This document shows, in pieces, positions 10,083-24,105 of a stretch of DNA of 45,326 bases; positions within the stretch are counted from its first letter, which is position 1; every line of letters starts with the position of its first letter. This stretch comes from Cyanobacteria bacterium RI_101 (GTDB taxonomy: Bacteria > Cyanobacteriota > Cyanobacteriia > Cyanobacteriales > Microcystaceae), in assembly GCA_016471375.1 (NCBI GenBank), contig WGLZ01000058.1:1-45326 (forward strand), in the 5' to 3' direction. Made by a program: the position numbers and the translations under genes. The notes under the pieces were generated by a model that was not told the origin of the DNA, ran no database searches, and saw only the letters and a program-made list of their open reading frames with translations.

Positions 10083-13000
10083 CTATTCGTTCTCAAAGGC
10101 TTGCTGGTTAAATTTAAGAGTATGGCAGTTTTCCATAACAGTCCGCACGATATCGTCAGGAGCGCCGTTGGGAATATCTGCTTCAATTTCCAGCGTTATT
10201 TTGACGTTGGCCCCTTTCAGCTTGGTAAGGTGTTGGATGATCTCATCGGCGATGGCCGAAGCATCCCGGTTAACTCGTAAAGCGTCTAATTGCACATTGC
10301 CGTAGAAGCGCCGGGGCTGGGGTTTGGGAGCTGGGAGTGATGGTGGGGGAGAAATAGGAATCATTTCTGAGCCTGTCGCTGTTTGGGATGGCAATGGGTT
10401 AGAAAAGGTAGAGACACTCGTTGGCCCAATGATCACATCAGGAGATCGCTCAGAGTCAATCTGGTCTTGGGCGATTTCAGGTTTAACAATTAAAGATTGG
10501 TTGCTGATACTGGGAGAAATACCCGTGCCATACTTCAGTCCCCTGTAACGTTTTTCGTTCTCGTCAAAGGCTTCAGCATAAGCAAAGTTTTCATGCCAGA
10601 TGGTAGAGGCTACCCCTTGACAAATGCAGTCTAATAAAACGGATTGATCCTTGAGGCGGGGCAGATACAAATATTGGGTCAGGTATTCCCACAGGGTCTT
10701 GAGATCGAGATGGTCTTTATTTTTCCAGAGATAGTCATCCAATGCCTGCATTTTTAAGATGCTAGGGGCGCAGACAGTTTTGATATAATCGCTATCAACT
10801 GCCCGACGGCTGGCCCGTAAGACAGCGGAATCTGCGCCCTGAATGCGGACTTCTTCCCATTCAATGTCACCTTGGGGATTATCGGTCTGCCCGGGAATAA
10901 TGAGCCACTCGTAGGCATTACTGAGGAGTTGATCTACGTCTTGGGTGCTTTGATTGCGCTTAGTGGTGGCTTGTTTTTGTTGAAAGCCGTCGAGATTTAA
11001 GGCGTCTTTGTCCTGCAAAATCGATTCCCAGGCGAGATATTGGGCGGTGTTCTCTTCGAGAATCTTGATTTTAGCGAGATCGGGGGCAAGAAATAACAGG
11101 GTGTTTTTGTAGTAGCGGGGACTACTGCCGCGGGTTTGAAGGGTTGCTTCAATCCATTGTTGAGCCTGACTATCGGGGGTTTTCTTTTGATGCCCGTACT
11201 GGGGATGGAGAATAACAAGTCGGACGCCAAGACTCCCATCATCGTGAACATCGGCGGAATTGTCCGGGGCAATGTGAATGGCGCTAAATTCGCCTCGGTT
11301 TTTGTCTTGTTTCAAGCGCCGCACAATTTCTTCCCAGACGGGATAGTGTTCTTCTAGGATTTGGGAGGCCCGCTCTTGAACGGTGCGATTGACGTTGGGC
11401 TGAGTGGAAACCCAATAACGACTGCCATCAATGTAGAGATAGGTGGCTTGATCAGTGAGGCGACGGAGGGCGTCGCTAAAGGTGGCTACGCTCTCCCCCG
11501 GTTGGACACACCCCAGTTTGACTCGGCGTTCCTCTAGTCCTCGATTAGCGGCCCGAAGGGTGGGGGCCGATCCCATGTAAATGGCGCGACTGACGCGACG
11601 ACAAGCAGAATAACGACCTAGGTTAGGGTTTTGGCGATCGAGGGTTAAAGGCAAGGAATTTAACCCATCCACGTCTTTTTCGATAATCGGTATCCAGTTG
11701 TCGTCTAAATAGCGGGTGAGTTCCGACTGTACTTGGGCGTCGTCCATGGGAATTTGCCCTGGCATGATCACTAAACTAGCGTCGTTGCGTTCCCAGAGGG
11801 TATGGATCACTTTGGCCATGAGCCGCAACACGCCCCGGGTGCGTTGGAATTTATCTAGAGTTGACCAGTCGGAATAAAGGCGATCGAAGAGTTCGGGGTG
11901 AATGGGGTAGGCGTCTTTCATCCTTCTTTCATAGTCCCGTTCTTTGCATTCGGCGGGGAATTCCTGAGCCTGGTTTTTGTAGAGATCAGCAAAGGCTTTA
12001 ACCACGGTATCCCGTTGGACAAACAGACCGGGGTCGCTCATGGTTTGAAAGAGTCGCCGCCGCACAATTTCAAAGCTTTCTTCGGCGCTAGCGGGGCGCC
12101 AGGGGGATTCCACTCGACCGATGGCATTTTTGAGCCGGTCTAGGGCTTCTTTGCCCCGATCGCCGCCAATTTCAATATCGGAGGAGGGGACACTGACCAC
12201 GAGCAGGGTATCTTTGGCATTTTTTGCGGATTCGCTGAGGGTCTGCGCAAAGGTGAAATGGGTATCAAAATCTCCCGCTGGAAGATCGTTTTTGTCATGC
12301 AGTTGGCGGCCATAGGCGACCCATTCATCGATCAGAATCAAGCAAGGGGAAAAGCGATTAAAAAGGGTTTTGAGTACGTCCCCCGGATTAGTAGAAGTCT
12401 CATCGGCTTCCCGCATCAGTTCATAGCCTTCTTTTCCCCCTAATTGCCAACCGATTTCCCCCCAGAGGGTACGGATTCGGGTGCCGTCGGGTTTGGAGTG
12501 GACTTGTCCAGGGGAAATTTTATTACCCACTAAGACAGCGACATTAACGTTCTGCGGCGGGGTGTTGAGTTCAGTTTCTTGGAAAAGGGGTTCCATCCCT
12601 GGCAAATCATTAATATTAAGGGCATGGCAGAGATGATAGAGGGCCAGCATGGCGTGGGTTTTGCCGCCCCCAAAGTTAGTTTGCAGTTCGATAACGGGAT
12701 CGCCGCCTTGGCCGCTTAACCGGAGTAGGGCGTTTTTGAGTAATTGCTTGAGTCCTTCGGTCAAATAGGTACGGCGGTAAAATTCAGTGGGGTCGCGATA
12801 TTCGTCTGAGCCTTCATCGAGGTAAACCTGCCATAAATCAGCGGCAAATTCCGCCTGTTGAAACCGTCCAGAGGCGACATCGGGGTGGGGGGTGGCAATT
12901 TCTCGCCAAGGTTTAAGACCTGTTTGGGGTTGCCCCTCGGTAGAGGCCAGCGCCGTTTTGCGGGTTTCGCGGCGGGCCTGTTCTTCAAACCGGAGCCGGA

Positions 13001-13418
13001 GAACTTCTTGTTTTTGTTTGTCGATTTCAGCGACTTCCGGCGCCGCGATGGCCGTTAGTAGGCGGCTGATGCTATCGAGAGCGCGGTAGGCGTTATCGGC
13101 GCTGTAGGTGGCGCTATGGGCCCAATCGTTGCGGATGGTGCGGAGTTCGCTGACGAGGGTTCTTTCCGCTTGACCCAGAGTTTTACGAAAAACGGTATTC
13201 CAGTTTTCCCAGATGGCGATCAGCAAGCTAGAAACGTCTTCCTTAAGTATCTCGTCGGGGGACTTACTGCGGGTGTAGTGTTCCGGCAGGCTATTTTCGA
13301 CTTTGCCTAACCACTGCCCACCGTGGGCAAATTTCATTTCCCGCTCAAAGTAGGGATATAGCCCCTGGTGAAGTAGCTTTAGGGCCCGTCCGACTCGTTC
13401 GTGATTGCTGATGGCCAT
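10083..13418 (-). CDS. Swt1-type HEPN / DUF499 ATPase, predicted defence protein
   Basis: This large 1111-residue protein has an N-terminal Swt1-like HEPN region whose RNDWAH motif near residue 97 fits the RX4H signature of HEPN ribonucleases. A DUF499 P-loop ATPase domain follows, with Walker A FGGGKTHAML near residue 247 and Walker B CLILIDEWVAYG near 364. Long helical and beta segments run to a C-terminal region after a proline-rich linker (PISPPPSLPAPKPQP near 1035). DUF499 ATPases accompany DUF1156 methylases and helicases in predicted phage-defence islands and resemble the large BREX-type ATPases. It is the last gene of the seven-gene block, about 50 bases after the PD-(D/E)XK gene. A role in sensing or executing defence is inferred from family and context. 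Confidence 0.85.
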   Translation of the reverse strand: MAISNHERVGRALKLLHQGLYPYFEREMKFAHGGQWLGKVENSLPEHYTRSKSPDEILKEDVSSLLIAIWENWNTVFRKTLGQAERTLVSELRTIRNDWAHSATYSADNAYRALDSISRLLTAIAAPEVAEIDKQKQEVLRLRFEEQARRETRKTALASTEGQPQTGLKPWREIATPHPDVASGRFQQAEFAADLWQVYLDEGSDEYRDPTEFYRRTYLTEGLKQLLKNALLRLSGQGGDPVIELQTNFGGGKTHAMLALYHLCHALNINDLPGMEPLFQETELNTPPQNVNVAVLVGNKISPGQVHSKPDGTRIRTLWGEIGWQLGGKEGYELMREADETSTNPGDVLKTLFNRFSPCLILIDEWVAYGRQLHDKNDLPAGDFDTHFTFAQTLSESAKNAKDTLLVVSVPSSDIEIGGDRGKEALDRLKNAIGRVESPWRPASAEESFEIVRRRLFQTMSDPGLFVQRDTVVKAFADLYKNQAQEFPAECKERDYERRMKDAYPIHPELFDRLYSDWSTLDKFQRTRGVLRLMAKVIHTLWERNDASLVIMPGQIPMDDAQVQSELTRYLDDNWIPIIEKDVDGLNSLPLTLDRQNPNLGRYSACRRVSRAIYMGSAPTLRAANRGLEERRVKLGCVQPGESVATFSDALRRLTDQATYLYIDGSRYWVSTQPNVNRTVQERASQILEEHYPVWEEIVRRLKQDKNRGEFSAIHIAPDNSADVHDDGSLGVRLVILHPQYGHQKKTPDSQAQQWIEATLQTRGSSPRYYKNTLLFLAPDLAKIKILEENTAQYLAWESILQDKDALNLDGFQQKQATTKRNQSTQDVDQLLSNAYEWLIIPGQTDNPQGDIEWEEVRIQGADSAVLRASRRAVDSDYIKTVCAPSILKMQALDDYLWKNKDHLDLKTLWEYLTQYLYLPRLKDQSVLLDCICQGVASTIWHENFAYAEAFDENEKRYRGLKYGTGISPSISNQSLIVKPEIAQDQIDSERSPDVIIGPTSVSTFSNPLPSQTATGSEMIPISPPPSLPAPKPQPRRFYGNVQLDALRVNRDASAIADEIIQHLTKLKGANVKITLEIEADIPNGAPDDIVRTVMENCHTLKFNQQAFENE

Positions 13419-14127: not shown

Positions 14128-14622
14128 TTATGGATTCGGTATAGGTGACACGATATCGGGACAAAGAAACTCTATGGTTAGCCCTAATTGCGTTAAGGCC
14201 TCATAACATTCTGCCCAATCTGGATCAACGGCATTAATAATGGGGGGGCGATCAGGACTTTTCAAGGCAACAGCAACAAATTTTCGATCTGAGGGATCAA
14301 ATTTTGTCAAACTAGCATCGTCAGGAAATTCTTGAAAACTGCCATCTTTAGGAGTGATAGTAATTTTCTGACAACGTTTTGGGTTGGCTTGATTAGTAAG
14401 TATCCATTTCAAAAAAGCATCTCCTATGCCGGGTTGTCCTTTGGGATTAACTTTATTTTGATACTCTTTAAGGATTAGCCATTTATCATCCACAATAACC
14501 ATTCCTTCTTTCTGGAAAGTTTCTAGGTATTTAATAGCTGAAAACTGACACTGTTGGGTAACCTGGGGGCAATCCCTACCGTTGGCAGCAATTAAAACAT
14601 TGGTGTCGATGACGGCTTTCAT
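14128..14622 (-). CDS. PIN-domain nuclease-like protein
   Basis: This 164-residue protein starts with MKAVIDTNVLIAA, whose Asp is typical of the first PIN acidic residue. A glutamate follows in LKEYQNK, then KFDPSDRKFVAVALKS near residue 110 and INAVDPDW near 133, which supply the remaining acidic cluster. PIN domains are metal-dependent ribonucleases, common as toxins and as effectors of defence systems. Its ATG overlaps the TGA of the AAA ATPase gene by one base (TGATG), so the two are translationally coupled and probably work as an ATPase-nuclease pair. It is AT-richer than the flanking methylase and DUF499 genes. Confidence 0.8.
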   Translation of the reverse strand: MKAVIDTNVLIAANGRDCPQVTQQCQFSAIKYLETFQKEGMVIVDDKWLILKEYQNKVNPKGQPGIGDAFLKWILTNQANPKRCQKITITPKDGSFQEFPDDASLTKFDPSDRKFVAVALKSPDRPPIINAVDPDWAECYEALTQLGLTIEFLCPDIVSPIPNP

Positions 14623-15998
14623 CAGTTTAATCCATCTCCCATTTGTCGTTTTATTGCGGCTTCTGTCATTGCCATGAGGTCGCCCATTTCATCCCCGAAA
14701 AAGTTATCTGGCCAATTAATAATATTGCCGAATAAATCAATCTCTAAAGGGGTAATGGAAGATTGTCCATCGGGCTGTGAATTGCAAAAATAGAGATTAA
14801 TATCATCAGGATTTAAGCCATCTTTTTCTTCCGCTATGCGTCGTTGTAGCCTTCTGAGCAAATGTTCGCTGTGGCTTTCGACAATAATTTGAATATTACG
14901 GGTTTTGATGGCATCAATAAATACATCAGCTAGCCCCGCTTGAACAGAGGGGTGAAGGTGAATTTCTGGCTGCTCTAGGATAATGGTCGATCCTTCGGGG
15001 GCATAGTAACACAATACTAAAACGGGAAGAACTTGGGAAACACCGAAGCCGACGTCAGTGATCAGCACTTCGGATGAATCTAACGTTCGTTTGACTCGTA
15101 CTTCATAATCTTTGCGATTTTTACCGATCGCCTGGACGTTAAAGCTATCAATTAGGTTGAGGTCTTTGAGCCAGAGGGCAACTCTTTCTTGAAGGGAAAC
15201 GGTTCTACGTGGACTCACTCTAATTTTTGGCAGTTTACGGGAAGCTAAGAGCGCGGGAATAGCGAGTTCTCCTCGTCTGCCTACATCTTGGGGTTTTTCT
15301 CCTGCCCAAGGATAGATACGTTTAGGATATTCCCGTAGAGGGCCAAGGTAATAGGTCTGTTGAAAGACTTGTTCATAGGCTAGGGAAAAGTCAGATAAGA
15401 AACCCGTATTTTGATAGTAACCGCTGGCTTGATCTGGAAATCCGTAATGTTTGATGGGTTCGGGCAATGGCCAGACCCTACCTTTGACCCGTTTTGGCCT
15501 AAAGCCCTTAGCTTTTAGGGTATATTCTGGGGGAGTTGATTGTCGTTGTTTCAGCTCAAAATTAATGAGTTCTTGTTCACATTTAAATTTATAGGAAAAT
15601 TCTTCGACAGAGATTTGGTCTTGATCAAGGCTTATCTTTGAGCTAAATTCAAGTTTATTAATGGCAAATAACACATCATCCTTTGTTCCTTCTGGATTGA
15701 GTATATTCAGGGTTTTAGGCAGTTCCCAAGCTAAATTAAAATTAATCATATTAGGAATAATATGTCGATAGGAAATATCGTAAAATGTGCCGACATCAAC
15801 ATAGCTTCTTTCATCGCCGGTATGGAGCACTCTCTGTCTATCAGTAGATTCGACAGTTTGCTTTAATAATAGTAAGAATTGAAGAATACTGGATTTTCCC
15901 GAACTGTTACTGCCAAAGAAAGCTGTAATTGGAGATAACTTTATTTCTCCAGTATCTTGCCATGATTTAAAATTCTGAAATTTTAGCTTGGTAAACAT
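14622..15998 (-). CDS. DUF3696 AAA (ABC/OLD-like) ATPase
   Basis: This protein of about 458 residues belongs to the SMC/OLD-like ATPases. It begins MFTKLKFQNFKSWQDTGEIKLSPIT, the usual family start, with Walker A FFGSNSSGKSSILQF near residue 28, Walker B STIILEQPEIHLHP near 338, the H-loop VESHSEHLLRRLQRRI, and a C-terminal DUF3696 tail with WPDNFFGDEMGDL. I chose the ATG at 15998 because it lies one base after the stop of the preceding gene. The in-frame start at 16031 would lie inside that gene. Such ATPases pair with nucleases in several anti-phage systems (PARIS and Septu are examples of the principle). Here the partner would be the coupled PIN protein. Confidence 0.85.
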   Translation of the reverse strand: MFTKLKFQNFKSWQDTGEIKLSPITAFFGSNSSGKSSILQFLLLLKQTVESTDRQRVLHTGDERSYVDVGTFYDISYRHIIPNMINFNLAWELPKTLNILNPEGTKDDVLFAINKLEFSSKISLDQDQISVEEFSYKFKCEQELINFELKQRQSTPPEYTLKAKGFRPKRVKGRVWPLPEPIKHYGFPDQASGYYQNTGFLSDFSLAYEQVFQQTYYLGPLREYPKRIYPWAGEKPQDVGRRGELAIPALLASRKLPKIRVSPRRTVSLQERVALWLKDLNLIDSFNVQAIGKNRKDYEVRVKRTLDSSEVLITDVGFGVSQVLPVLVLCYYAPEGSTIILEQPEIHLHPSVQAGLADVFIDAIKTRNIQIIVESHSEHLLRRLQRRIAEEKDGLNPDDINLYFCNSQPDGQSSITPLEIDLFGNIINWPDNFFGDEMGDLMAMTEAAIKRQMGDGLN

Positions 15999-15999
15999 C

Positions 16000-16362
16000 T
16001 TAATTAAATGGGTTTTCCATTTTGGACACAAGATAGGGTAAATTGCCGGATTTAAGCATGATTACCAGATGTTCAATTTGTTCGTATTCTGCTAATTCTT
16101 GGGTTTCTTCGGGGGTTAGATTGTCTTCTTGACTGCGGGTAAGTAGATAATTTAAACGCTGTTGCATGGCGGGAGTCGGTCGAAAAGCGGCAATTTCTTC
16201 GGGGGTGGGTTGACTGATCAAAAAATCAAGAATATGGCGATAAACTTGGGTCGTCAAAATAGAAGGTTGTAGGCATTGACTTAATAAATGGGGTAACTGG
16301 TCTTGAATAGGAGCCAGGCGCTCCATTAAATCATCGGGAATTTCAACGGTGAAGGTTGCCAT
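16000..16362 (-). CDS. Small antitoxin-like protein
   Basis: This 120-residue protein begins FTVEIPDDLMERLAPI and ends in a helical region RPTPAMQQRLNYLLTRSQEDNLTPEETQELAEYEQIEHLVIMLK. This pattern is seen in many small cyanobacterial proteins encoded next to PIN or HNH nucleases. By analogy it could be an antitoxin or regulator for the PIN protein two genes downstream. Its stop codon is one base from the AAA ATPase start, so the three genes form a tight unit. The exact 14-bp repeat containing its ribosome binding site overlaps the end of the methylase gene. The function is inferred from context. Confidence 0.7.
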   Translation of the reverse strand: MATFTVEIPDDLMERLAPIQDQLPHLLSQCLQPSILTTQVYRHILDFLISQPTPEEIAAFRPTPAMQQRLNYLLTRSQEDNLTPEETQELAEYEQIEHLVIMLKSGNLPYLVSKMENPFN

Positions 16363-16370
16363 GGTGTTTT

Positions 16371-16384
16371 TCCTCTAAAGAAAA
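16371..16384 (-). repeat. 14-bp direct repeat, upstream copy (cassette boundary)
   Basis: TTTTCTTTAGAGGA on the coding strand. It encodes the last codons and the TAG stop of the DUF1156 methylase and also supplies the ribosome binding site of the small protein, 8 bases before its ATG. It is identical to 14113-14126. Deleting the sequence between the copies would fuse the methylase end directly to the PD-(D/E)XK gene with correct spacing. Confidence 0.8.
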
Positions 16385-19300
16385 CTCATTTGTTCGGGCG
16401 CCGGTTGAGATTCGTTGGCTAGGCGGGAAATCTCTGGCCAGGAAATCACTAGGCTGTTATAACTAATAGCTTCCTGAGTCCAGCCTTTTCTGTCGCACAG
16501 GTTATACAGTCGATAGGCTAAGTCGCGGGCAATTTCCCCTTGATCGCCGAGTTTGGCTAGGAGATCCGCCGCGCCGGTTTCGCCTTTCTTGTCGAGGGCA
16601 TGGATAAGGACTTGGGTGAGGAACCAGTGGGGGGCGTTGGAGGGAATAGATGACAGGGAACTGGGAACAGAATTTTCACTATTCCCTCTTCCCTCTTCCC
16701 TCTTCCCTTTTTTCTGGCCAATTTCTTCGCGGGGCAGTAGACGCGCTTTTCCGGCTTTGGCTTCGAGGATTCCGGCATCCACTAGCCCTTGGACGCTGGT
16801 TACTCTGGCTTTGCTCAGTAGTTCAGCTTCACCGTAGGGGCCGGGGTTGAATTGATATTGCTCGAACCAGGTCAGGGCCCAACGGGTATCACTATCAAAT
16901 TCCCCTTCTTGTTCGGTTAAAAATTCGTCGAGGAGTTGGTTGATCAGTTGCAGGGCTGTCCGTACTCTGAGGGGTGAGCCATCGTTTTCGAGGACGGCGG
17001 CATATTGGGAATAAATGGCCATGCCGGGGCCAATACTGGCTTGTGCCAAATCCACGGGGGCGATGTTGCCTTGCTGGAGGGTTTTTAGTGCTCTGGGTAA
17101 TTTGTCGTTAAGTTCCTTAATGAACTGGCGGCGGCTAGTTTTGGGGGCATTAGCGGGACGGGGACGGCATACGAGGACGATGGAAGATGCTAGGGCATTA
17201 GAGCCTATATTTCTTGTTCGAGCTTCTCGCTCTGTTTTTAGTGGCCAGGTTCCGCCAATGCTGAAATTAGCTTGCATTAAGCCTTCTAAGATGGTTTCCC
17301 AACCTGTAGATGCAATTTGATCCTCGCTATCTGATTCCGTCTGTTTAAGGGCGTAATAAACGGTAAAGGGATAGTTTTGATGGGTTATTGTATTAACGCG
17401 ATGAAAAACTTTTGTTAGTCCTGTTTCAAAAAATTCTTTGGCTTTGGCTTTACTTCCATGACGAAAATTGTCTGCCACCATTTCTTGGGCTTTTGGTACT
17501 AGCAACGTTCCAAATATTTCAGGATAAATTTCCCCAACAGAGTGCCGCAACCAAACATAAAAGAAATCAGAAAGATCGGCATAAGGAACTGCGTCATAAT
17601 ATGGAGGATCTGACGACATTATTTTAGGCTTTAAATCATTACAATAAAATTCTTTTGCATCATGTTGAAATGAAATTCCTGAAGATGTTTGAAATCCTAC
17701 TGAGTCTATTCCTTTCAACATCCTTTCAAATAAATTATGCAAACTACCCGAAGACTCACAAAAAAGATTACTTTCTGCAAAATCCCAGGTCATCGGAATG
17801 GCTTGGCGAGCAAAAACATTTCGCATTTGTTCATTGACAGAGTTCCAACTACAAACAGTTGATTGATGATTTGCAATTTGATCAATAAGAAAAGCTAAGT
17901 AAACGGCGATCGCCTCTCCATAAGCCCTTGCTCCTTGTCCCCCTTCCGCTAAGGGTTGATCATCATCGGGTAAACCAGTCGCTATAGCATCTTGAATTGC
18001 CTTTTCCTTCGCTTCACTCACCAAATCACTAAAGGTTGTCAGGGCAACTAATTGGCGATCTGTGAATAAATGAGCGTGTTCTGTCATGCCATAATTTTGC
18101 ACACGAAACCCTAATGCTTCTTTCGGTAACTTAGTGTTAGGTTTCCAATCTGGTTGGGCAGATAAAGCAATTTCTTCCTGCTCCGGCGTTGGCGACAAAT
18201 AAACCCGTCCCCCCTGACCTTCCGCCACGATCGCCATCAACTGTTGACCCATTCGCCCCGCTTTTCCCTCACTGCGGACATGATCCAACGGCACAGGGGT
18301 TTCACACGCCAAACAGACCGCCCCCTTACGTTCCACCGTACCCTCCGGCGCTTTTCCTTTCCCCGTTTTCACCTCAAAGCGAATGCGAGGAGTGAGAAGT
18401 GAGGAGTGAGAAGTAAGAGGAGAAACTTCATCTACACTCCCATCTCCCTTCTCTTTCCTCTCTTCTACAACAGGCTCCACCCAAGCCTCCTTACCCTTCT
18501 TCGTCGAAAGCTGAAACGATCGCACCAACGGCATCCGACAACCACAGGCCGGATTGGGACAAGTAACAGTTCTAGCCCATAACCAAGCAATGACGGTGAG
18601 AAGAGAGGTGTTAGGAGTGAGTTGTGAGGGATTAGGAGAAGAGTTGGTAGGAGTGAGTTGTGAGGGAGCATTCTCATTCCTCACTCCTCGTTCCTCACTT
18701 CTCGTTCCTCCTGTCTCACTGCTAACTTTTGGATACAAATGCCCGATACGTTTAAACGCCTCCTCTCGCATCCATTCCCCGTAATACCGCACATCCGCCG
18801 CCAACCCTTGGGCCCCTTTGTAGAAGTGAGAGGTTAGGAGAGAGGAATTAGGAGAGAGTTGAGGAATTAGGAGAGAGGAGTTAGGAGAGAGTTGAGAGGA
18901 AATAGTCTTGTTCCTCACTTCTCCATCCTCACTCCTCACTTCTCCACCCTCACTCCTCTCTTCTCCACCCTCACTCCTCTCTTCCCCCGCCGCAACGTCG
19001 TTAACATTCGACTCACTTCGTCCAATAACCCCCGCAATTGAGCCGTCTGATCCTTCGGGAACCACCCCAGAGCCTCGCACAGCGTTAGTAACGTCTCCAC
19101 CTCCGCTAGAGATCCCTGAGCGATCGCCAGAAAGTGAGCCTTCTCCTTGTCCGACTCCCTCGTCCACCCCTCCGCTATATTGGCTGGAATAGAGACCACA
19201 GCCCGCGTGATTTGAGAACGCATTCCGTAGGTTTCTTCCTTCGGTAACTTCGGCGTCAGCTGATAAACGGCGATCGCCGCCTTCATAGCTTTCTGCCAAA

Positions 19301-19965
19301 CGATCAAATCCTTGTACGCCATCCTCGTTCCTCACTCCTAATAACTCGTTTCTAGAAACTGGATTCACCGGCGCCTGATCCTTAAACCTCGGCGGAATCT
19401 CGATTAACGCCTTATTGATTAACACTGCCACCGGATTGAGATCGCTGGCATGGGCTTCCAACCCCAACCGCTGAGCCTCCAAGGGAATCGAGCCACCCCC
19501 CGCGAACGGGTCATAGGCCGGCGGCGCGTACCGGGCAATATAATCCCGCACCGCATCGGGTTGAGTTGGGGGTTCCTCCCCCCGCTCCCAGGCCAAACAG
19601 CGGGCAATCTCCCGCTGAGCCTCATTGATCACCTCTGGCTCCTTAATATCATCCCAGGACACCAAGCCCCGTACCACCTGCTTTGTAGCGCCCTTCTTAT
19701 CCGTCTCCGTCTCAAAGCGCCCCAAAATATCAAACAACCGTTGCCGTTCCCGCTTTTGTGCCTCCTCCGTTGGGAACCGATCCGGCCAGCTAGATGGATC
19801 ATCCACCAAAGAAGCCCACAACACCGCCCGACAAGCCGCTAAAGGGCGCCGCGCCCACCAGAGATGAAGCGTCGAAGGATGACCATGACGGATCGACTTC
19901 TCCCGCGCCGATTCCGCATTGATGGCCTCTAGGGGTAAAGCCACTTCGATGAGTTTTTTACGCAT
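16375..19965 (-). CDS. DUF1156 DNA methylase with in-frame repeat inserts
   Basis: This 1196-residue predicted N6/N4 DNA methyltransferase starts with the DUF1156 region (EVALPLEAINAESAREKSIRHGHPSTLHLWWARRP pattern, residues 6-40). It shows the AdoMet motif DPFAGGGSIPLEAQ near 153 and the catalytic motif SSDPPYYDAVPYADLSDFFY near 789. It is a likely modification component of the island. The frame is interrupted, without being broken, by low-complexity inserts: about residues 204-380 (containing another gene), about 413-457, about 498-526, and about 1085-1108. Family-like sequence resumes after each (GAQGLAADVRYYGEWM after the first). Whether this long form is active is unknown. It is separated from the upstream helicase by 148 bases with a possible promoter. 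Confidence 0.85.
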   Translation of the reverse strand: MRKKLIEVALPLEAINAESAREKSIRHGHPSTLHLWWARRPLAACRAVLWASLVDDPSSWPDRFPTEEAQKRERQRLFDILGRFETETDKKGATKQVVRGLVSWDDIKEPEVINEAQREIARCLAWERGEEPPTQPDAVRDYIARYAPPAYDPFAGGGSIPLEAQRLGLEAHASDLNPVAVLINKALIEIPPRFKDQAPVNPVSRNELLGVRNEDGVQGFDRLAESYEGGDRRLSADAEVTEGRNLRNAFSNHAGCGLYSSQYSGGVDEGVGQGEGSLSGDRSGISSGGGDVTNAVRGSGVVPEGSDGSIAGVIGRSESNVNDVAAGEERSEGGEERSEGGEVRSEDGEVRNKTISSQLSPNSSLLIPQLSPNSSLLTSHFYKGAQGLAADVRYYGEWMREEAFKRIGHLYPKVSSETGGTRSEERGVRNENAPSQLTPTNSSPNPSQLTPNTSLLTVIAWLWARTVTCPNPACGCRMPLVRSFQLSTKKGKEAWVEPVVEERKEKGDGSVDEVSPLTSHSSLLTPRIRFEVKTGKGKAPEGTVERKGAVCLACETPVPLDHVRSEGKAGRMGQQLMAIVAEGQGGRVYLSPTPEQEEIALSAQPDWKPNTKLPKEALGFRVQNYGMTEHAHLFTDRQLVALTTFSDLVSEAKEKAIQDAIATGLPDDDQPLAEGGQGARAYGEAIAVYLAFLIDQIANHQSTVCSWNSVNEQMRNVFARQAIPMTWDFAESNLFCESSGSLHNLFERMLKGIDSVGFQTSSGISFQHDAKEFYCNDLKPKIMSSDPPYYDAVPYADLSDFFYVWLRHSVGEIYPEIFGTLLVPKAQEMVADNFRHGSKAKAKEFFETGLTKVFHRVNTITHQNYPFTVYYALKQTESDSEDQIASTGWETILEGLMQANFSIGGTWPLKTEREARTRNIGSNALASSIVLVCRPRPANAPKTSRRQFIKELNDKLPRALKTLQQGNIAPVDLAQASIGPGMAIYSQYAAVLENDGSPLRVRTALQLINQLLDEFLTEQEGEFDSDTRWALTWFEQYQFNPGPYGEAELLSKARVTSVQGLVDAGILEAKAGKARLLPREEIGQKKGKREEGRGNSENSVPSSLSSIPSNAPHWFLTQVLIHALDKKGETGAADLLAKLGDQGEIARDLAYRLYNLCDRKGWTQEAISYNSLVISWPEISRLANESQPAPEQMSFL
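16640..16712 (-). repeat. Heptad-repeat hairpin inserted in methylase (C-terminal)
   Basis: On the coding strand, purine heptads of the type GGGAAGA are followed by a short spacer and a pyrimidine arm with TTCCCAGTTCCCTG, so the RNA can fold back. In the methylase it encodes a KKGKREEGRGNSENSVPSS-type peptide between the LPREE and APHWFLTQVL parts of the protein. Confidence 0.7.
18386..18472 (-). repeat. Heptad-repeat hairpin inserted in methylase (third insert)
   Basis: On the coding strand, purine-rich units (AAGAGAGGAAAGAGAAGGGA) are followed by pyrimidine-rich units (CTCACTTCTCACTCCTC), encoding a peptide with SPLTSHSSLLTPR. It has the same purine-arm then pyrimidine-arm build as the other inserts, and the methylase frame continues on both sides. 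Confidence 0.65.
18595..18722 (-). repeat. Heptad-repeat hairpin inserted in methylase (second insert)
   Basis: The coding strand has GAGGAACGAGAAGTGAGGAA-type units, then AATGCTCCC, then CAACTCACTCCTA-type units. The purine arm can pair with the pyrimidine arm. It adds a RSEERGVRNENAPSQLTP-type peptide between the family-like segments RIGHLYPKV and IAWLWARTVTCPNPACG. Confidence 0.7.
18821..18978 (-). repeat. Heptad-repeat hairpin downstream of the nested four-helix-bundle gene
   Basis: The coding strand shows repeats of GGAGTGAGGGTGGAGAAGAGA, a spacer ACAAGACTATTTC, and then repeats of CAACTCTCTCCTAA. The purine part encodes the tail of the nested four-helix-bundle protein (RGVRVEKRGVRVEK) and, in the methylase frame, EERSEGG units. 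A short related segment (TTAGGAGTGAGGAACGAGG) precedes the nested gene at 19323-19341, so the nested gene is bracketed by repeat sequence. Confidence 0.75.
18936..19322 (-). CDS. Four-helix-bundle (S23/IVS, Avd-like) protein nested inside the methylase gene
   Basis: This 128-residue protein reads on the same strand as the methylase but in a different frame. It begins MAYKDLIVWQKAMKAAIAVYQL and contains LPKEETYGMRSQITRAVVSIPANIAEGWTRES, the hallmark of the four-helix-bundle family of 23S rRNA intervening-sequence proteins, related to Avd of diversity-generating retroelements. Its C-terminus runs into the heptad repeats (RGVRVEKRGVRVEK). A Shine-Dalgarno-like GAGGA precedes the ATG. In this interval the methylase frame encodes Gly/Ser/Glu-rich sequence unlike a folded domain, so the four-helix-bundle frame is the evolved one. 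The methylase frame is probably a by-product that stays open. It probably arrived as a repeat-bracketed insert. Confidence 0.85.
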   Translation of the reverse strand: MAYKDLIVWQKAMKAAIAVYQLTPKLPKEETYGMRSQITRAVVSIPANIAEGWTRESDKEKAHFLAIAQGSLAEVETLLTLCEALGWFPKDQTAQLRGLLDEVSRMLTTLRRGKRGVRVEKRGVRVEK

Positions 19966-20008
19966 GGGAGAGTTAATAAGTCCTACTTAAGAACGCAAAG
20001 GTGAGGAT

Positions 20009-20031
20009 AATCAACGATTTTACCGTTGATT
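20009..20031. promoter_or_regulatory. Inverted repeat between helicase and methylase genes
   Basis: AATCAACG and CGTTGATT are perfect 8-base arms around a 7-base loop, 44 bases upstream of the methylase start. It could be an operator dyad or an RNA hairpin in the leader. No T-tract follows on the coding strand, so it is not a convincing terminator. Confidence 0.5.
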
Positions 20032-20091
20032 GATAAGTGTTGATCCTGGCATTTGTCGGATATTCAATAAAAGTTTTAAATCTTTTTAAAT

Positions 20092-20097
20092 ATTATA
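20092..20097 (-). promoter_or_regulatory. Possible -10 element for the methylase operon
   Basis: TATAAT occurs on the minus strand 127 bases upstream of the methylase ATG, with no good -35 hexamer at the usual spacing. Together with the 148-base gap after the helicase, it suggests that the methylase and downstream genes may have their own promoter. Confidence 0.35.
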
Positions 20098-20113
20098 GTT
20101 GGCATACAGACCT

Positions 20114-23100
20114 TTATTGAGGTTCCCCCCTTTCCCATAATGCCCGCCAATCATAATTAACGCTACAGGCTCCCCAATCCGGTTCCTTCTCAAACGGCGC
20201 TCGTACATAACGCACCTCGCAACCGGCTAGATCCGCTTGATAATCCCTCCCCGATTCCTTAACCCGAAACGCGTCCCCCTCTGGAAAATCCGCCGCCGGC
20301 ACCGAGACCAAGGCCAAGAGAAAATTATCGGGCTTATTGAGGGCAGTTAAAACCTCGTTTTTGGTCACCGTCACCGTGGTAGCCCCGACGATCCGCCCCT
20401 TGACCTCAATAAACCGCAAATGGCCCGTCTCTGGGATCTGAGACTCAATATCATAGCCACACTTTTTGGCGCTCACGTCCTGGGGTAAATAACCCAACGC
20501 TTTTTCCCGCGCCATGACCGCCCCCATCGCCGCTAACTCCACCCGTTTAGTTTCTCTAGCAAATAGACTGGGTTCCGCGTCCCGTTTCCCTTGACGTCGT
20601 TGTAATAGACCAATAGGAACCACTAGACAACCCCCCACCACTATGGGCGGCATAGGGGACAACTGCCGCTCCTGTTCTAATTCCTCTAAACGCTTTTGTA
20701 GTCGAGCCGCTAGATCGTCAGCCCGTTGTTGGGCCTTAGCGGAATTAAGTTTGGCGTTGAGTTTGCCCGCTTCTTCCTGTCGCCGTAAATCCGCGGCCCG
20801 CTGATCCCAATAGTTAATTTCTTTGGTGAGCCGGTCTTTCACCGCTTGGAGAGTTTTATCAATTAAACGCTCTTTGGGTTCCCGCACGTCTTTGAGGTGA
20901 TTGGGGACTAAATTGGCGATCGCGTAACTGATGGCTTGGCTTTCTAGATTTTGTCCCAGTTGCAGGTTGTTTAAGGAATCGGCGATCGCCTCTTTTTCGG
21001 CGCCGGTGATGGGACGGTAATCCAGATAAGGCGCGTAACCAGCATTGATAGGAGTGAGAGAATAGGTAACAGGAACGCCTAATATCTGTTTTCTCTCTCC
21101 TCTATCCTCTTCCCTCTCTCCTCTACCCTCTTCCCTCTCTCCTCTACCCTCTTCCCTAAACTCCACATACTGCATCCGCCGCGACACCACCCGCCGACGG
21201 CCATCTTTGACGGTGCGGGCGTCTTGAATGGCGTGTTCTAAATAGACCAGAGCGCGAATGGCTTCCCCTGGATCGCTTTCATCCACCAATACCGCTCCCC
21301 GTTTTAATAAATCCCGATGGCGTTCTAGGGTCAAATCTAACGCGGCGTCGAGGAGGGGATGGCCGGGACAGACAAAATCGGCCAGGGGTTTACCCGGCGA
21401 GCTAATCAGACTTTTATCAAAACAGATCCGTTCATAGCGCCGCAGAATCGCGTCTCCTACCCCAATTTGCCGGTCTCTGTTGCGGACGATCGCCGGGACA
21501 TGGGTGATTTCATAACGGCGGGGTTCCCGTTGGCGAATACTGCCCCCCAATCGTTGAAAGGCTTCTAGGAAAAAGGCGGCGATGAAGTAGGGTTGCAACT
21601 TTCGCGCTTCCGCCCGTTCCATATCTTCCCGAATTTTCTGCACCTTGGTGGCGTCCATAGAATCCTGGGCTAGAGCTTTTTCTTCCAATAATTCCTGTAA
21701 ATGCTTTTGATCCAGACGATCGGCAATGACTTGATCTAACTTGGCTTTGACATCCGGGCGATCGCCGTAGCGCACCGCTTCGATCAATAATTCCCGCAGT
21801 TCCTTACCCGCAATGGCCTTCCCCAATACGTCAAACACCTTGCCCCCAAGGGCGGCTTGCTCCACCTCCAACTTTTTCAACAGGGCATAATAGACGTCTC
21901 CTTCCCGGGTTTCCTGAGCCACCAAATTCCAGAGGTGACAAACTTCTGTTTGGCCAATGCGGTGGATACGCCCAAAGCGTTGTTCTAGGCGATTAGGATT
22001 CCAAGGCAGATCGTAATTGACCATCAAATGGGCCCGTTGTAGGTTAATTCCTTCTCCGGCGGCGTCGGTGGCGATTAAGACTTGAACCCCAATATCTTGC
22101 TTAAAGGCTTCCTCCGCTTTTTTGCGTTCCTCCCGCCCCATACCTCCGTGAATAGTGACGATGGCTTCAGGACGCCCCAGTAAGGTGCCAATTTGGCGTA
22201 CTAGATAATTGAGCGTATCCCGATGCTCCGTAAAGATCACTAGTTTAGGGAATAGGGAGTAGGTAATAGGGAGTAGGGGTTTGTTCTCTGTTTCCTGTTC
22301 CCTATCCCCTAGCAACAGGGTTTGTAATAACTTAGACATTTCTTCCCACTTCCGATCCTTACCCCCCCGTCGCACTTGTAGCGCCAATTTCTCTAATCGT
22401 TCCAACAGTCGTATCTCAGTTTTCAACTCGGCGATCGTCCGGGCCGCCGTCGCTTGATCCACCACTTCTTCTTCCGTGGCTTCCCGTTCGGCGCTGGCCG
22501 CATCATCAAAGTCATCATCCCAATCTTCTGGGTCAATAGTCAGACCAAAGTCCAACTCGGCTGCGCCGCCCCGTTTCAGAATTTCCTCTTCCCGCAGTCG
22601 TTTTTGTAACCGTTCCCGCCGTCGTTGTAAGGATTGATAAATGGCTTCTGGCGAAGAGGCCAAACGCCGTTGCAGGATGGTCAGGGCAAACCCCACCGTG
22701 CCTTTACGCCCATCATTTTTAAGGCTCTCCGCTCGGTCAAATTCTTCCCGCACATAGTCCGTCACCTGCCGATACAAAATCGCCTCTTGGTCAGAGAGAA
22801 CATACTGCACCGTATGGGCCCGTCGCTCGGGGAAGAGGGGTTTACCGTCAAATTTCAACAAATCTTCTTTAATCAAGCGCCGCATCAAGTCTGATGTATC
22901 GCAGACATGAACCCCGTCCCGAAATCGTCCTTCAAAGCGATCGCCGTCCAGTAAAGCTAAAAATAATTGAAAATCTTCTTCCTTTCCGTTGTGGGGCGTC
23001 GCTGTCATCAACAGAAAATGACGGGTCAGAGTCGAAAGTAACTTGCCCAACTTATAGCGTTTAGTCTCTCGAATTTCTCCCCCAAAAAAAGAGGCCGATA

Positions 23101-23902
23101 GCTTGTGGGCTTCATCCACCACCACTAAATCCCAATCCGTCCGTTCCAGCTTGGCCTTAATCTCCTCGTTGCGGCTCAATTTATCCAATCGGGCGATTGT
23201 CAAGGGCATTTCCGCAAAAGCATTTCCCGTCCGGGCCGCTTCCAGGCGATCGTTAGTCAGAATTTCAAAAGGCAAATGAAACTTCTGGAATAATTCATCC
23301 TGCCATTGCACCGCTAAACTCCCCGGACAGACAATCAAGCATCGCTGTAAGTCCCCCCGGATTAATAACTCCCGGATCAGCAATCCTGCCATGATCGTTT
23401 TCCCGGCCCCCGGATCGTCCGCCAGCATAAACCGCAATGGCTGGCGCATCAGCATCTCACTGTAGACTGCTGTAATTTGATGGGGTAACGGCTCCACCAA
23501 AGAAGTATGTACTGCCAAAAGCGGATCGAATAGATGGGCAAGACGAATGCGATGGGCTTCAGACGCCAACCGCAATAATGCCCCATCCCCATCAAAGCTC
23601 CAGCGTTGTCCGGCCGTCGCAATTTCTAGCCCCGCTTCCCGTTCCCGCAGTAGCAAATCAACTTGGGGTTGACCTTCGGCGTCTTTATAAGTCAGTTCCA
23701 CCACATCGCTACCATGCCACTGAATATCAATGACGGTCACAACTTGGTTGGGCAGTATTCCCTTGAGAGACGCCCCACGGGTAAGGTCTTCTAGTCGCGT
23801 CACAACATGATTGGGAAAGATATTTAATAAACCTAATTTACCAGAAGCTACTGCTAAGGCTCTTGATTTTGCGGGGTTTGAAACGGCGCCGAAGAGGATC
23901 AT
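20114..23902 (-). CDS. SNF2-type helicase with C-terminal DUF3883, predicted defence protein
   Basis: This 1262-residue superfamily 2 ATPase has Walker A LADDPGAGKTIMAGLLI near residue 160, DEAH in VVVDEAHKLS near 261, motif III LLMTATPHNGK, and the C-terminal lobe motifs VLIATDAAGEGINLQRAHLMVNYD and RFGRIHRIGQ near 642. A DUF3883 domain with GYDIESQ and FIEVKGR lies near residues 1134-1195. Helicases of this type accompany methylases in DISARM-like and other defence islands. Two heptad-repeat inserts lie in frame at about residues 530-552 and 915-950. The homologous part seems to begin at TRLEDLTRGASLKGILPNQVV, where a GTG at 23803 could be the true start; the first 33 residues may be an extension. 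It is the first gene of the island. Confidence 0.87.
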   Translation of the reverse strand: MILFGAVSNPAKSRALAVASGKLGLLNIFPNHVVTRLEDLTRGASLKGILPNQVVTVIDIQWHGSDVVELTYKDAEGQPQVDLLLREREAGLEIATAGQRWSFDGDGALLRLASEAHRIRLAHLFDPLLAVHTSLVEPLPHQITAVYSEMLMRQPLRFMLADDPGAGKTIMAGLLIRELLIRGDLQRCLIVCPGSLAVQWQDELFQKFHLPFEILTNDRLEAARTGNAFAEMPLTIARLDKLSRNEEIKAKLERTDWDLVVVDEAHKLSASFFGGEIRETKRYKLGKLLSTLTRHFLLMTATPHNGKEEDFQLFLALLDGDRFEGRFRDGVHVCDTSDLMRRLIKEDLLKFDGKPLFPERRAHTVQYVLSDQEAILYRQVTDYVREEFDRAESLKNDGRKGTVGFALTILQRRLASSPEAIYQSLQRRRERLQKRLREEEILKRGGAAELDFGLTIDPEDWDDDFDDAASAEREATEEEVVDQATAARTIAELKTEIRLLERLEKLALQVRRGGKDRKWEEMSKLLQTLLLGDREQETENKPLLPITYSLFPKLVIFTEHRDTLNYLVRQIGTLLGRPEAIVTIHGGMGREERKKAEEAFKQDIGVQVLIATDAAGEGINLQRAHLMVNYDLPWNPNRLEQRFGRIHRIGQTEVCHLWNLVAQETREGDVYYALLKKLEVEQAALGGKVFDVLGKAIAGKELRELLIEAVRYGDRPDVKAKLDQVIADRLDQKHLQELLEEKALAQDSMDATKVQKIREDMERAEARKLQPYFIAAFFLEAFQRLGGSIRQREPRRYEITHVPAIVRNRDRQIGVGDAILRRYERICFDKSLISSPGKPLADFVCPGHPLLDAALDLTLERHRDLLKRGAVLVDESDPGEAIRALVYLEHAIQDARTVKDGRRRVVSRRMQYVEFREEGRGEREEGRGEREEDRGERKQILGVPVTYSLTPINAGYAPYLDYRPITGAEKEAIADSLNNLQLGQNLESQAISYAIANLVPNHLKDVREPKERLIDKTLQAVKDRLTKEINYWDQRAADLRRQEEAGKLNAKLNSAKAQQRADDLAARLQKRLEELEQERQLSPMPPIVVGGCLVVPIGLLQRRQGKRDAEPSLFARETKRVELAAMGAVMAREKALGYLPQDVSAKKCGYDIESQIPETGHLRFIEVKGRIVGATTVTVTKNEVLTALNKPDNFLLALVSVPAADFPEGDAFRVKESGRDYQADLAGCEVRYVRAPFEKEPDWGACSVNYDWRALWERGEPQ
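21047..21157 (-). repeat. Heptad-repeat hairpin inserted in helicase (second insert)
   Basis: On the coding strand, three near-identical copies of GGGAAGAGGGTAGAGGAGAGA are followed by an AAACAGATATTAGGCG spacer and a pyrimidine arm (CCTATTCTCTCACTCCTA). In the helicase it encodes REEGRGEREEGRGEREEDRG and a following SLTPIN-like stretch, between FREEG and the resumed family sequence GYAPYLDYRPI. Confidence 0.75.
22246..22312 (-). repeat. Heptad-repeat hairpin inserted in helicase (first insert)
   Basis: The coding strand has GGGGATAGGGAACAGGAAAC, then CAAACCCCTACTCCCTATTA and CCTACTCCCTATTCCC, so the arms can pair. It encodes GDREQETENKPLLPITYSLF, directly before the conserved KLVIFTEHRDTLNYL helicase segment. 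Confidence 0.7.
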
Positions 23903-23980
23903 GGCATAAGCTTAGGCTAGCAAGGGGGAAACACCGCTCACCAGCCGGTCTTCGCTGATTTCTGGTTCTCCCCCTTCGCA

Positions 23981-24105
23981 AGCTACCGCGTACACAGATC
24001 TTCCCCAAAACTCCTTTTGCCCCCCTGCCCCCCAAGTTTGGGGGGAGATTGAGACTTTTTTGAGTTCAAAGTCCCCCAGAATTGGGGGATTTAGGGGGCT
24101 GATTG
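23981..24105 (-). repeat. MITE-like repeat at right edge of island
   Basis: It begins AGCTACCGCGTACACAGATC, which matches the reverse complement of the right end of the copy at 196-344, and continues into C-rich/G-rich hairpins (GCCCCCCAAGTTTGGGGGG and CCCCCAGAATTGGGGG). The second inverted end is not recognisable. It lies between the helicase start and the cytochrome gene, at the right boundary of the acquired block. Confidence 0.65.

Follow-up and report, generated by a model that had tools for sequence, protein, structure and literature searches.

An S23 gene nested in another frame of a cyanobacterial DNA methylase gene, probably as a mobile and dual-coded insertion

The Hma operon and the insert in hmaB

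The window, by which we mean the whole stretch of 45,326 nucleotides analysed here, carries a complete Hma anti-phage defence system, with HmaA, HmaB and HmaC all present. Its hmaB gene reads as an open frame of 1196 amino acids with no internal stop in the ORF reading of the window. The PADLOC HmaB profile (1140.9 bits) matches the encoded methylase over two separate stretches, and its best stretch begins at residue 381 (profile position 211), exactly where a sequence-only reading of this DNA had seen family-like methylase sequence resume; DUF1156 (PF06634), at the N-terminus, is the sole Pfam match of the protein. The relevant features, all on the minus strand, are as follows.

10083..13418, minus strand: HmaC, AAA+ ATPase (DUF499, HEPN_Swt1), PADLOC 1093.9 bits
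16375..19965, minus strand: HmaB, the host gene, a DUF1156 DNA-adenine methylase of the Hma anti-phage operon (PADLOC HmaB, PF06634)
18379..18474, minus strand: site C, a cargo-free heptad hairpin, in frame
18598..18729, minus strand: site B, a cargo-free heptad hairpin, in frame; G284 and G083, two of the homologues, have an in-frame DUF559 domain here
18820..19362, minus strand: site-A insert spanning host codons 202-382, with ...PVN(201) before it and K(383)GAQGLA... after it
18834..18896, minus strand: repeat array, C-rich on the coding strand, inverted relative to the 5' arm
18912..18984, minus strand: repeat array, G-rich on the coding strand, 3.5 copies of 21 = 3x7
18936..19322, minus strand: complete nested gene of 128 amino acids for an S23 (23S_rRNA_IVP, Avd-like) four-helix-bundle protein, frame +1 relative to the host
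18999..19313, minus strand: PF05635 domain of the nested gene (profile match)
19323..19338, minus strand: 5' heptad arm GGAGTGAGGAACGAGG, which probably doubles as the Shine-Dalgarno region of the S23 gene
20114..23902, minus strand: HmaA, SNF2-type helicase, in the same operon as HmaB, PADLOC 1649.9 bits

The sequence-only reading had described a methylase interrupted after about residue 204 by some 530 bases, holding an intact S23 gene in another frame of the same strand, flanked by heptads and crossed by a methylase frame that stays open. All of this is borne out, with the limits refined: the insert adds 181 HmaB codons after residue 201, at a place where most homologues have 11-12, and it replaces this spacer rather than splitting it; with the spacer replaced, site A allows neither a target-site duplication nor an exact insert end to be fixed. 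The nested protein matches PF05635 with 132.4 bits (cut-off 33.8) and TIGR02436 with 125.1 (cut-off 24), and its fold is assigned by homology to a solved relative (PDB 2gsc, E 2.5e-19). Its Pfam matches are PF05635 and bAvd only, with no endonuclease among them, and it scores 31.2 bits against the Avd model NF033474, below the cut-off of 80. The C-terminal tail of S23 is coded by the repeat array, and a GGAGTGAGGAACGAG repeat stands directly upstream of the S23 start, where the window (G000) has the start signal AGGA and a second genome discussed below (G119) has GAGGAG; a clear start signal is absent in Chryseobacterium and some other copies. In the methylase frame the same bases read as a stop-free, Gly/Ser/Glu-rich linker. 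The arms of the window insert are short and pair modestly, with a score of 19 that falls below the 95% point of 22 for swapped arms, and the RNA fold has a z of -1.9. A structure model of HmaB with its insert, based on an alignment of two sequences only, was unusable (mean pLDDT 31.8).

The insert lies in hmaB and not in a 23S rRNA gene, the location of classical intervening sequences (IVSs). Pfam identifies no splicing (Hint) domain of the intein kind in the HmaB host frame, and group I and II intron families of Rfam give no match at E<=0.1 over positions 16300-24000. An RNA-family explanation was dropped, as the nine Rfam matches at E<=0.1 are to hairpin models of the miRNA type or UTR models, all below their gathering scores.

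Several observations concern the surroundings. Between hmaC and hmaB lies a PADLOC candidate defence pair, HEC-03A/HEC-03B (window positions 14128-16031), and further in-frame heptad arrays occur inside hmaA (21093-21157) and near the C-terminus of hmaB (16682-16708), making the Hma operon of the window rich in in-frame repeats. There is no support for a multicopy, mobile repeat of this heptad type in the genome, GGAGTGAGRARNGAG having four matches (one for the backward control), three of them inside the window. Additional S23 copies in the window genome amount to one, weak, in a protein search, and a family search finds three in all. A phage collection yielded zero matches to the window S23 at E<=1e-3. 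Plasmids gave 26 records, all less than 60% identical to it. The nearest of these plasmid S23s hint at a cyanobacterial source; GCGATCGC-rich sequence presumably points the same way.

Occupied and empty sites, and other hosts

Within a set of 291 genomes of the same phylum (own genome included), the window protein has matches at E<=1e-50 in 22; 13 of these are close and complete enough for site A to be read, six are distant (33-36% identity) and three are fragments (G007, G070, G121). Site A measures 11-12 amino acids in nine of the 13 close homologues, 23 amino acids with repeat arms and no gene in G083, and is short, as judged by eye, in G051, which the pattern search had missed. An S23 gene occupies it in the window genome and in G119, which belongs to another family, leaving 11 of the 13 without one (window genome counted). 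Sites B and C hold cargo-free repeat arms in several homologues. A Meiothermus MAG has an S23 gene, 71% identical, at the same HmaB site within a host frame open over 1056 amino acids, and a Halochromatium locus (L218) bears an apparent remnant. The sequence-only reading had allowed for an assembly artefact; this is unlikely because the insert recurs at the same site in the Meiothermus MAG and in G119, in the latter case on a contig of 3.78 Mb and in a host frame open over 1199 amino acids.

On a tree of 14 HmaB host proteins (midpoint-rooted, with one row 29% filled), the presence of S23 demands three changes, three of them forced by well-supported branches, and S23-less proteins are the sisters of both cyanobacterial carriers (G083 of the window protein, G114 of that of G119). 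This patchy, homing-like occupancy of a single site could reflect homing, or else repeated clean and precise loss. The S23s of site A, including the Halochromatium remnant, form one clade (100/99) beside the copies of G177, Nitrospirales and L216. In a 190-row S23 tree, which has few columns and an unsettled bootstrap, the nested label (13 rows including the remnant) needs eight changes, three of them forced.

The single clade fits an account in which one old HmaB insertion has been lost many times and its S23 has become an immobile, domesticated part of the Hma defence, as does the strong purifying selection on S23 at this fixed site over a near-saturated synonymous distance. Such a history needs repeated precise loss, the nearest sister hosts lacking S23, and it is at odds with the occurrence of the same type of S23 in hosts as unrelated as DnaE2 and the N6_N4 methylases; we find it rather unlikely.

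A search for S23 genes within other genes, an idea already contained in the sequence-only reading, revealed nested copies in several phyla. The host sites number six, with one register throughout: HmaB, a second DUF1156 site, an N6_N4 methylase, an Eco57I-type methylase, DnaE2 and probably LeuRS. A first sample consisted of 113 distinct S23 domains in fetched loci, part of the matches listed, and contained four nested ones (the window, G119, G307 and G177). The host in G307 was recognised by eye as another DUF1156-type protein, with S23 at its site B, and that in G177 is an N6_N4-type methyltransferase 49% identical to the host of a Pseudanabaena MAG (L275). A second sample, drawn from a collection of genomes of 84,980 species with an alignment of the four nested S23s (best 80 of 561 matches) and from a scan of viral contigs, is biased towards S23s resembling the nested ones, and eight of its 88 S23 domains are nested. 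Methylases with the PF01555 N6_N4 domain, for which we suggest the label 'type III-like', are the hosts in Nitrospirales, Chryseobacterium and Pseudanabaena MAGs, with S23 at the place it has in G177 in all of them. The host in a Hydrogenedentes MAG is an Eco57I-type methylase (PF07669), as is, by motif only and at a contig end, that in a Myxococcales MAG. An IMG/VR contig has S23 in the error-prone polymerase DnaE2, whose profile is matched over positions 5-566 before the insert and 562-1047 after it, and in a Treponema MAG the host, again at a contig end, is probably a leucyl-tRNA synthetase. Two of these hosts, L236 and L264 (the latter without a family match), are cut off by a contig edge, and we count them as no more than probable.

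Seven of the 12 nested hosts are open to their own end stop, four run off the contig (G307, L236, L264, L274) and one, in G177, is damaged by an in-frame stop soon after host sequence resumes. Homologues of the L275 host exist in nine of 194 genomes, and those of G033, G039, G085 and G127, open over 893-937 amino acids, have no match over the S23 segment. By eye, the N6_N4 methylase of L275 also contains several cargo-free, heptad-like hairpins in frame beside its S23 insert. Left out of the count were L225, L252 and L265, where a frame is open over S23 with no host recognised on both sides, L216 and L218, which look like remnants of hosts with S23, L157, a same-frame extension only, and L222, which has another offset and no host.

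Selection in two frames and the absence of stops

Over 113 codons compared between the window and G119, the S23 proteins agree at 89 positions and the host-frame readings at 39. In the S23 frame pN is 0.157 and pS 0.767, against 0.356 and 0.14 for the same bases in the methylase frame, and all ten same-site pairs behave alike, with S23-frame pN of 0.13-0.31, pS of 0.54-0.87 and a host-frame pN exceeding pS. These substitution patterns indicate that the S23 frame is under purifying selection and that the linker is not conserved as a protein; selection, then, would see the S23 protein and leave the linker free. The segment reads as 30-36% identical as host protein where S23 is 72-80% identical, and it is absent from most homologues, in line with the sequence-only reading, which had not taken it for a conserved domain of such methylases. 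The reading of residues 202-382 as a true, conserved domain of HmaB, with the S23 frame as a by-product, has in its favour a single point, the presence of the segment at the same site in three hosts, and we consider it negligible as an explanation.

The frame that corresponds to the host's is free of stops in all 11 nested copies and in six of the 167 other copies among 178 full-length S23 domains (rows shorter than 290 bases or with ambiguous letters, L236 among them, were left out); in a first set of 94 domains, zero stops occurred only in the four nested ones. We estimated the chance of such an open frame by keeping the S23 protein fixed and drawing codons from S23s of similar GC content. 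It is 0.005 for the window, 0.0005 for G119, 0.0055 for G307, 0.0285 for G177, 0.046 for Meiothermus, 0.024 for Nitrospirales, 0.023 for Myxococcales and 0.0385 for DnaE2, with 0/2000 draws for Chryseobacterium and Pseudanabaena (L228, L275); the Hydrogenedentes copy (L274) has 0.15 and, being GC-rich, belongs to the cases that carry little information on stops. These values are not fully independent, same-site copies having common ancestry, although many of the copies are close to saturated with respect to one another at synonymous positions. The third frame contains 4-12 stops in all 11 nested copies, which is enough to explain why they have one register in common, and we have dropped the single register as a sign of mechanism.

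Two further accounts of the host bear on these data. In one of them, raised in the sequence-only reading, the insert would be cut from the mRNA in the manner of a 23S rRNA IVS or an intron and the host protein made without it. The S23 family is indeed known from IVSs excised by RNase III (PMC4990558), and the flanks of the insert can fold back. RNase III cutting without ligation, established for IVSs, would break the mRNA, however, and the intron families of Rfam are unmatched here at E<=0.1. A removed insert would not need an open host frame, and yet all 11 full-length nested copies have kept that frame clear of stops while their synonymous sites largely turned over. Removal at the RNA level appears highly improbable. 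In the other account HmaB is non-functional here and only S23 matters. The broken frame in G177, one of 12 nested hosts, speaks for it; the open host frames of the window, G119 and Meiothermus, the constraint on host codons 2-204 between the window and G119 (pN 0.096, pS 0.751) and the avoidance of stops inside the insert speak against it, and we judge it very unlikely. What we favour, as quite probable on the evidence of the sequences compared, is that the insert is a mobile, IVS-type, dual-coded S23 element translated through by its host. The suggestion that it is tolerated as an open linker within coding sequence agrees with the stop-free host frame.

Repeat arms, known relatives and the proposed element

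Many S23 genes lie between tandem heptads, the 3' array being the reverse complement of the 5' one and the heptads themselves differing between loci. To score the arms, we aligned each 5' flank locally with its reverse-complemented 3' counterpart. In 110 S23 loci, a set that includes near-copies from G118 and in which a few top scores come from sequences other than heptads, the median score is 28.5, compared with 13 when arms are swapped between loci and 12 elsewhere in the same locus, and 77 and 92 loci, respectively, exceed the 95% points of these controls. A wider set of 86 loci gives a median of 20 against 12 (swapped) and 13 (same locus), with 50 and 37 loci above the respective 95% points. 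After de-duplication at 70% identity, 122 S23 loci give 23 versus 12, with 85 of them above the threshold and the inverted score exceeding the direct one in 99. The Meiothermus insert, with a score of 17, is weaker than that of the window. Identity at a lag of seven is 0.378 and 0.387 in S23 flanks against 0.260 in controls, and the flanks are G-rich on the 5' side and C-rich on the 3' side in 127 of 196 loci, with the reverse in seven. Heptad tandem arrays are also familiar from cyanobacteria, as short tandem heptad repeats (STRR), alongside small dispersed repeats; heptads as paired inverted arms around S23 genes were not found in the literature searched.

Mobility, surmised in the sequence-only reading, gains support from the patchiness on the host tree, the variety of host genes and a multicopy, MITE-like S23 element in G118. 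This genome has 12 related S23 copies (L135-L143, L145-L147) in segments mostly 95-99% identical and up to about 800 bp long, with terminal inverted repeats and, in some, internal deletions. Seven copies have both ends readable, and in five of these (L135, L139, L141, L146, L147) we recognised by eye direct end repeats of 7-8 bp, which we take for target duplications; those of L140 and L145 do not match. To judge from these copies, the S23 unit has clearly moved in G118. The S23 domain is broken off near position 87 in most of them, whence the MITE-like look of an element moved by another protein, with S23 and the heptads as passengers, and the multicopy element may be a special case.

Many proteins unrelated to one another contain a second domain, DUF559, as an in-frame insertion or attachment next to repeat arms of the PLPRGEG or PSPSGRGAGGEG type. 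Its hosts include DUF1156 proteins (L063, L064), PriA (L107), a radical SAM protein (L108), an M14 peptidase (L112), a GHMP kinase that looks IspE-like by eye (L104), methylases of the Eco57I/ISP type (L193, L196, L202) and an N6_N4 methylase (L203). Twenty-nine of 53 distinct copies lie in frames longer than 250 amino acids, in a set enriched by the picking of long frames, and their flanks pair as inverted arms with a median of 29 against 14 for swapped arms (30 of 53 above the 95% point). Insertions of this kind thus probably have DUF559 as another cargo besides S23. In L203 (G011), the region around ORF residues 490-720 reads by eye like DUF559 within a split Hint/intein, in the position of a homing endonuclease, a tentative call made on motifs only; Pfam reports no match to a Hint domain in L203.

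The principle of a dual-coded insertion is already known, since it underlies the published ShiLan element of phages, in which an HNH endonuclease gene lies out of frame inside a methylase gene whose own frame stays open and whose insert is predicted to loop away (PMC11855218). ShiLan and the S23 insert are alike in placing a complete gene in another frame of a DNA methylase gene, in the stop-free host frame and in a patchy, homing-like distribution. They differ in cargo, an endonuclease there and a non-nuclease four-helix protein here, and in setting, ShiLan being described mainly from phages, with similar elements reported in other phages and prokaryotes, whereas the S23 inserts occur in bacterial genomes of several phyla. 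The S23 inserts also stand apart by their hosts, which include DnaE2 and probably LeuRS, their heptad arms and, in several copies, a Shine-Dalgarno-like sequence; ShiLan-type insertions lie between two codons for conserved residues, while site A is a variable spacer.

The other relatives concern RNA genes and repeats. In the 23S rRNA IVS of Coxiella, tandem heptamers stand directly upstream of the S23 start, so that this IVS and our insert have in common the protein family, heptads before S23 and, as far as the modest pairing of the window arms suggests, a gene between complementary ends (PMC4990558); IVSs reside in rRNA and are cut by RNase III, whereas the present insert sits in a protein gene whose frame is open through it. 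23S_rRNA_IVP ORFs are also described from insertions in 16S and 23S rRNA genes of CPR bacteria, and these are confined to rRNA genes and mostly carry homing-endonuclease ORFs, unlike S23 in a protein gene (PMC11270868). Protein genes may also tolerate in-frame palindromic repeats, known as Rickettsia RPEs and as REPs, the latter also from DnaE2 genes; these are short and gene-free, as are sites B and C, while site A has a gene (PMC3733652). The resemblance of PF05635 to the Avd protein of diversity-generating retroelements is likewise in print (PMC10053308), although the window S23 stays below the cut-off of the Avd model. The literature searched, which took in few subscription journals and no preprints, showed no case of S23 nested within a protein gene; what seems new within that scope is the non-nuclease S23 cargo, the chromosomal location, the spread over several phyla in hosts such as DnaE2, the heptad arms and the connection with rRNA IVSs.

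We picture the events as follows. A small element of the 23S-rRNA-IVS type, with one S23 gene between heptad repeat arms, would have landed in a permissive HmaB loop, site A, which is variable in homologues. The host ribosome would read through it, so that HmaB acquires some 181 residues of Gly/Ser/Glu-rich linker where 11-12 are usual, and S23 would be made from its own ATG within the same mRNA, aided by a purine-rich Shine-Dalgarno sequence that the 5' heptad arm supplies. Both proteins would then be produced, the linker presumably being disordered and harmless. The arms may act as hairpins or as insertion homology. S23 resembles Avd, the accessory protein of retrohoming elements, and may therefore bind nucleic acid in a process akin to retrohoming; its product would, in a homing-like role, help the element to move or stay. 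Given that the Coxiella IVS also has heptamers before S23, the IVSs of rRNA, the free S23 genes with heptad arms and the nested ones may all be one kind of element. A wider view, which we put forward tentatively and regard as possible though doubtful, would unite them as one family of gene-sized mobile parasites that enter tolerant RNA-encoding sites, keep the host usable by RNase cutting in rRNA or by dual coding in mRNA, and spread in a homing- or retrohoming-like manner, with the Avd-like S23 recognising the heptad arms.

S23 proteins have been known from interrupted rRNA genes, with, to our knowledge, no settled function. The nested copies present S23 as a protein selected inside a foreign protein gene while the host frame is kept open, and they show dual coding arising repeatedly through insertion. 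They would thereby make testable the function of S23, the movement of IVS-type elements and the way in which one mRNA may serve both a defence enzyme and its passenger.
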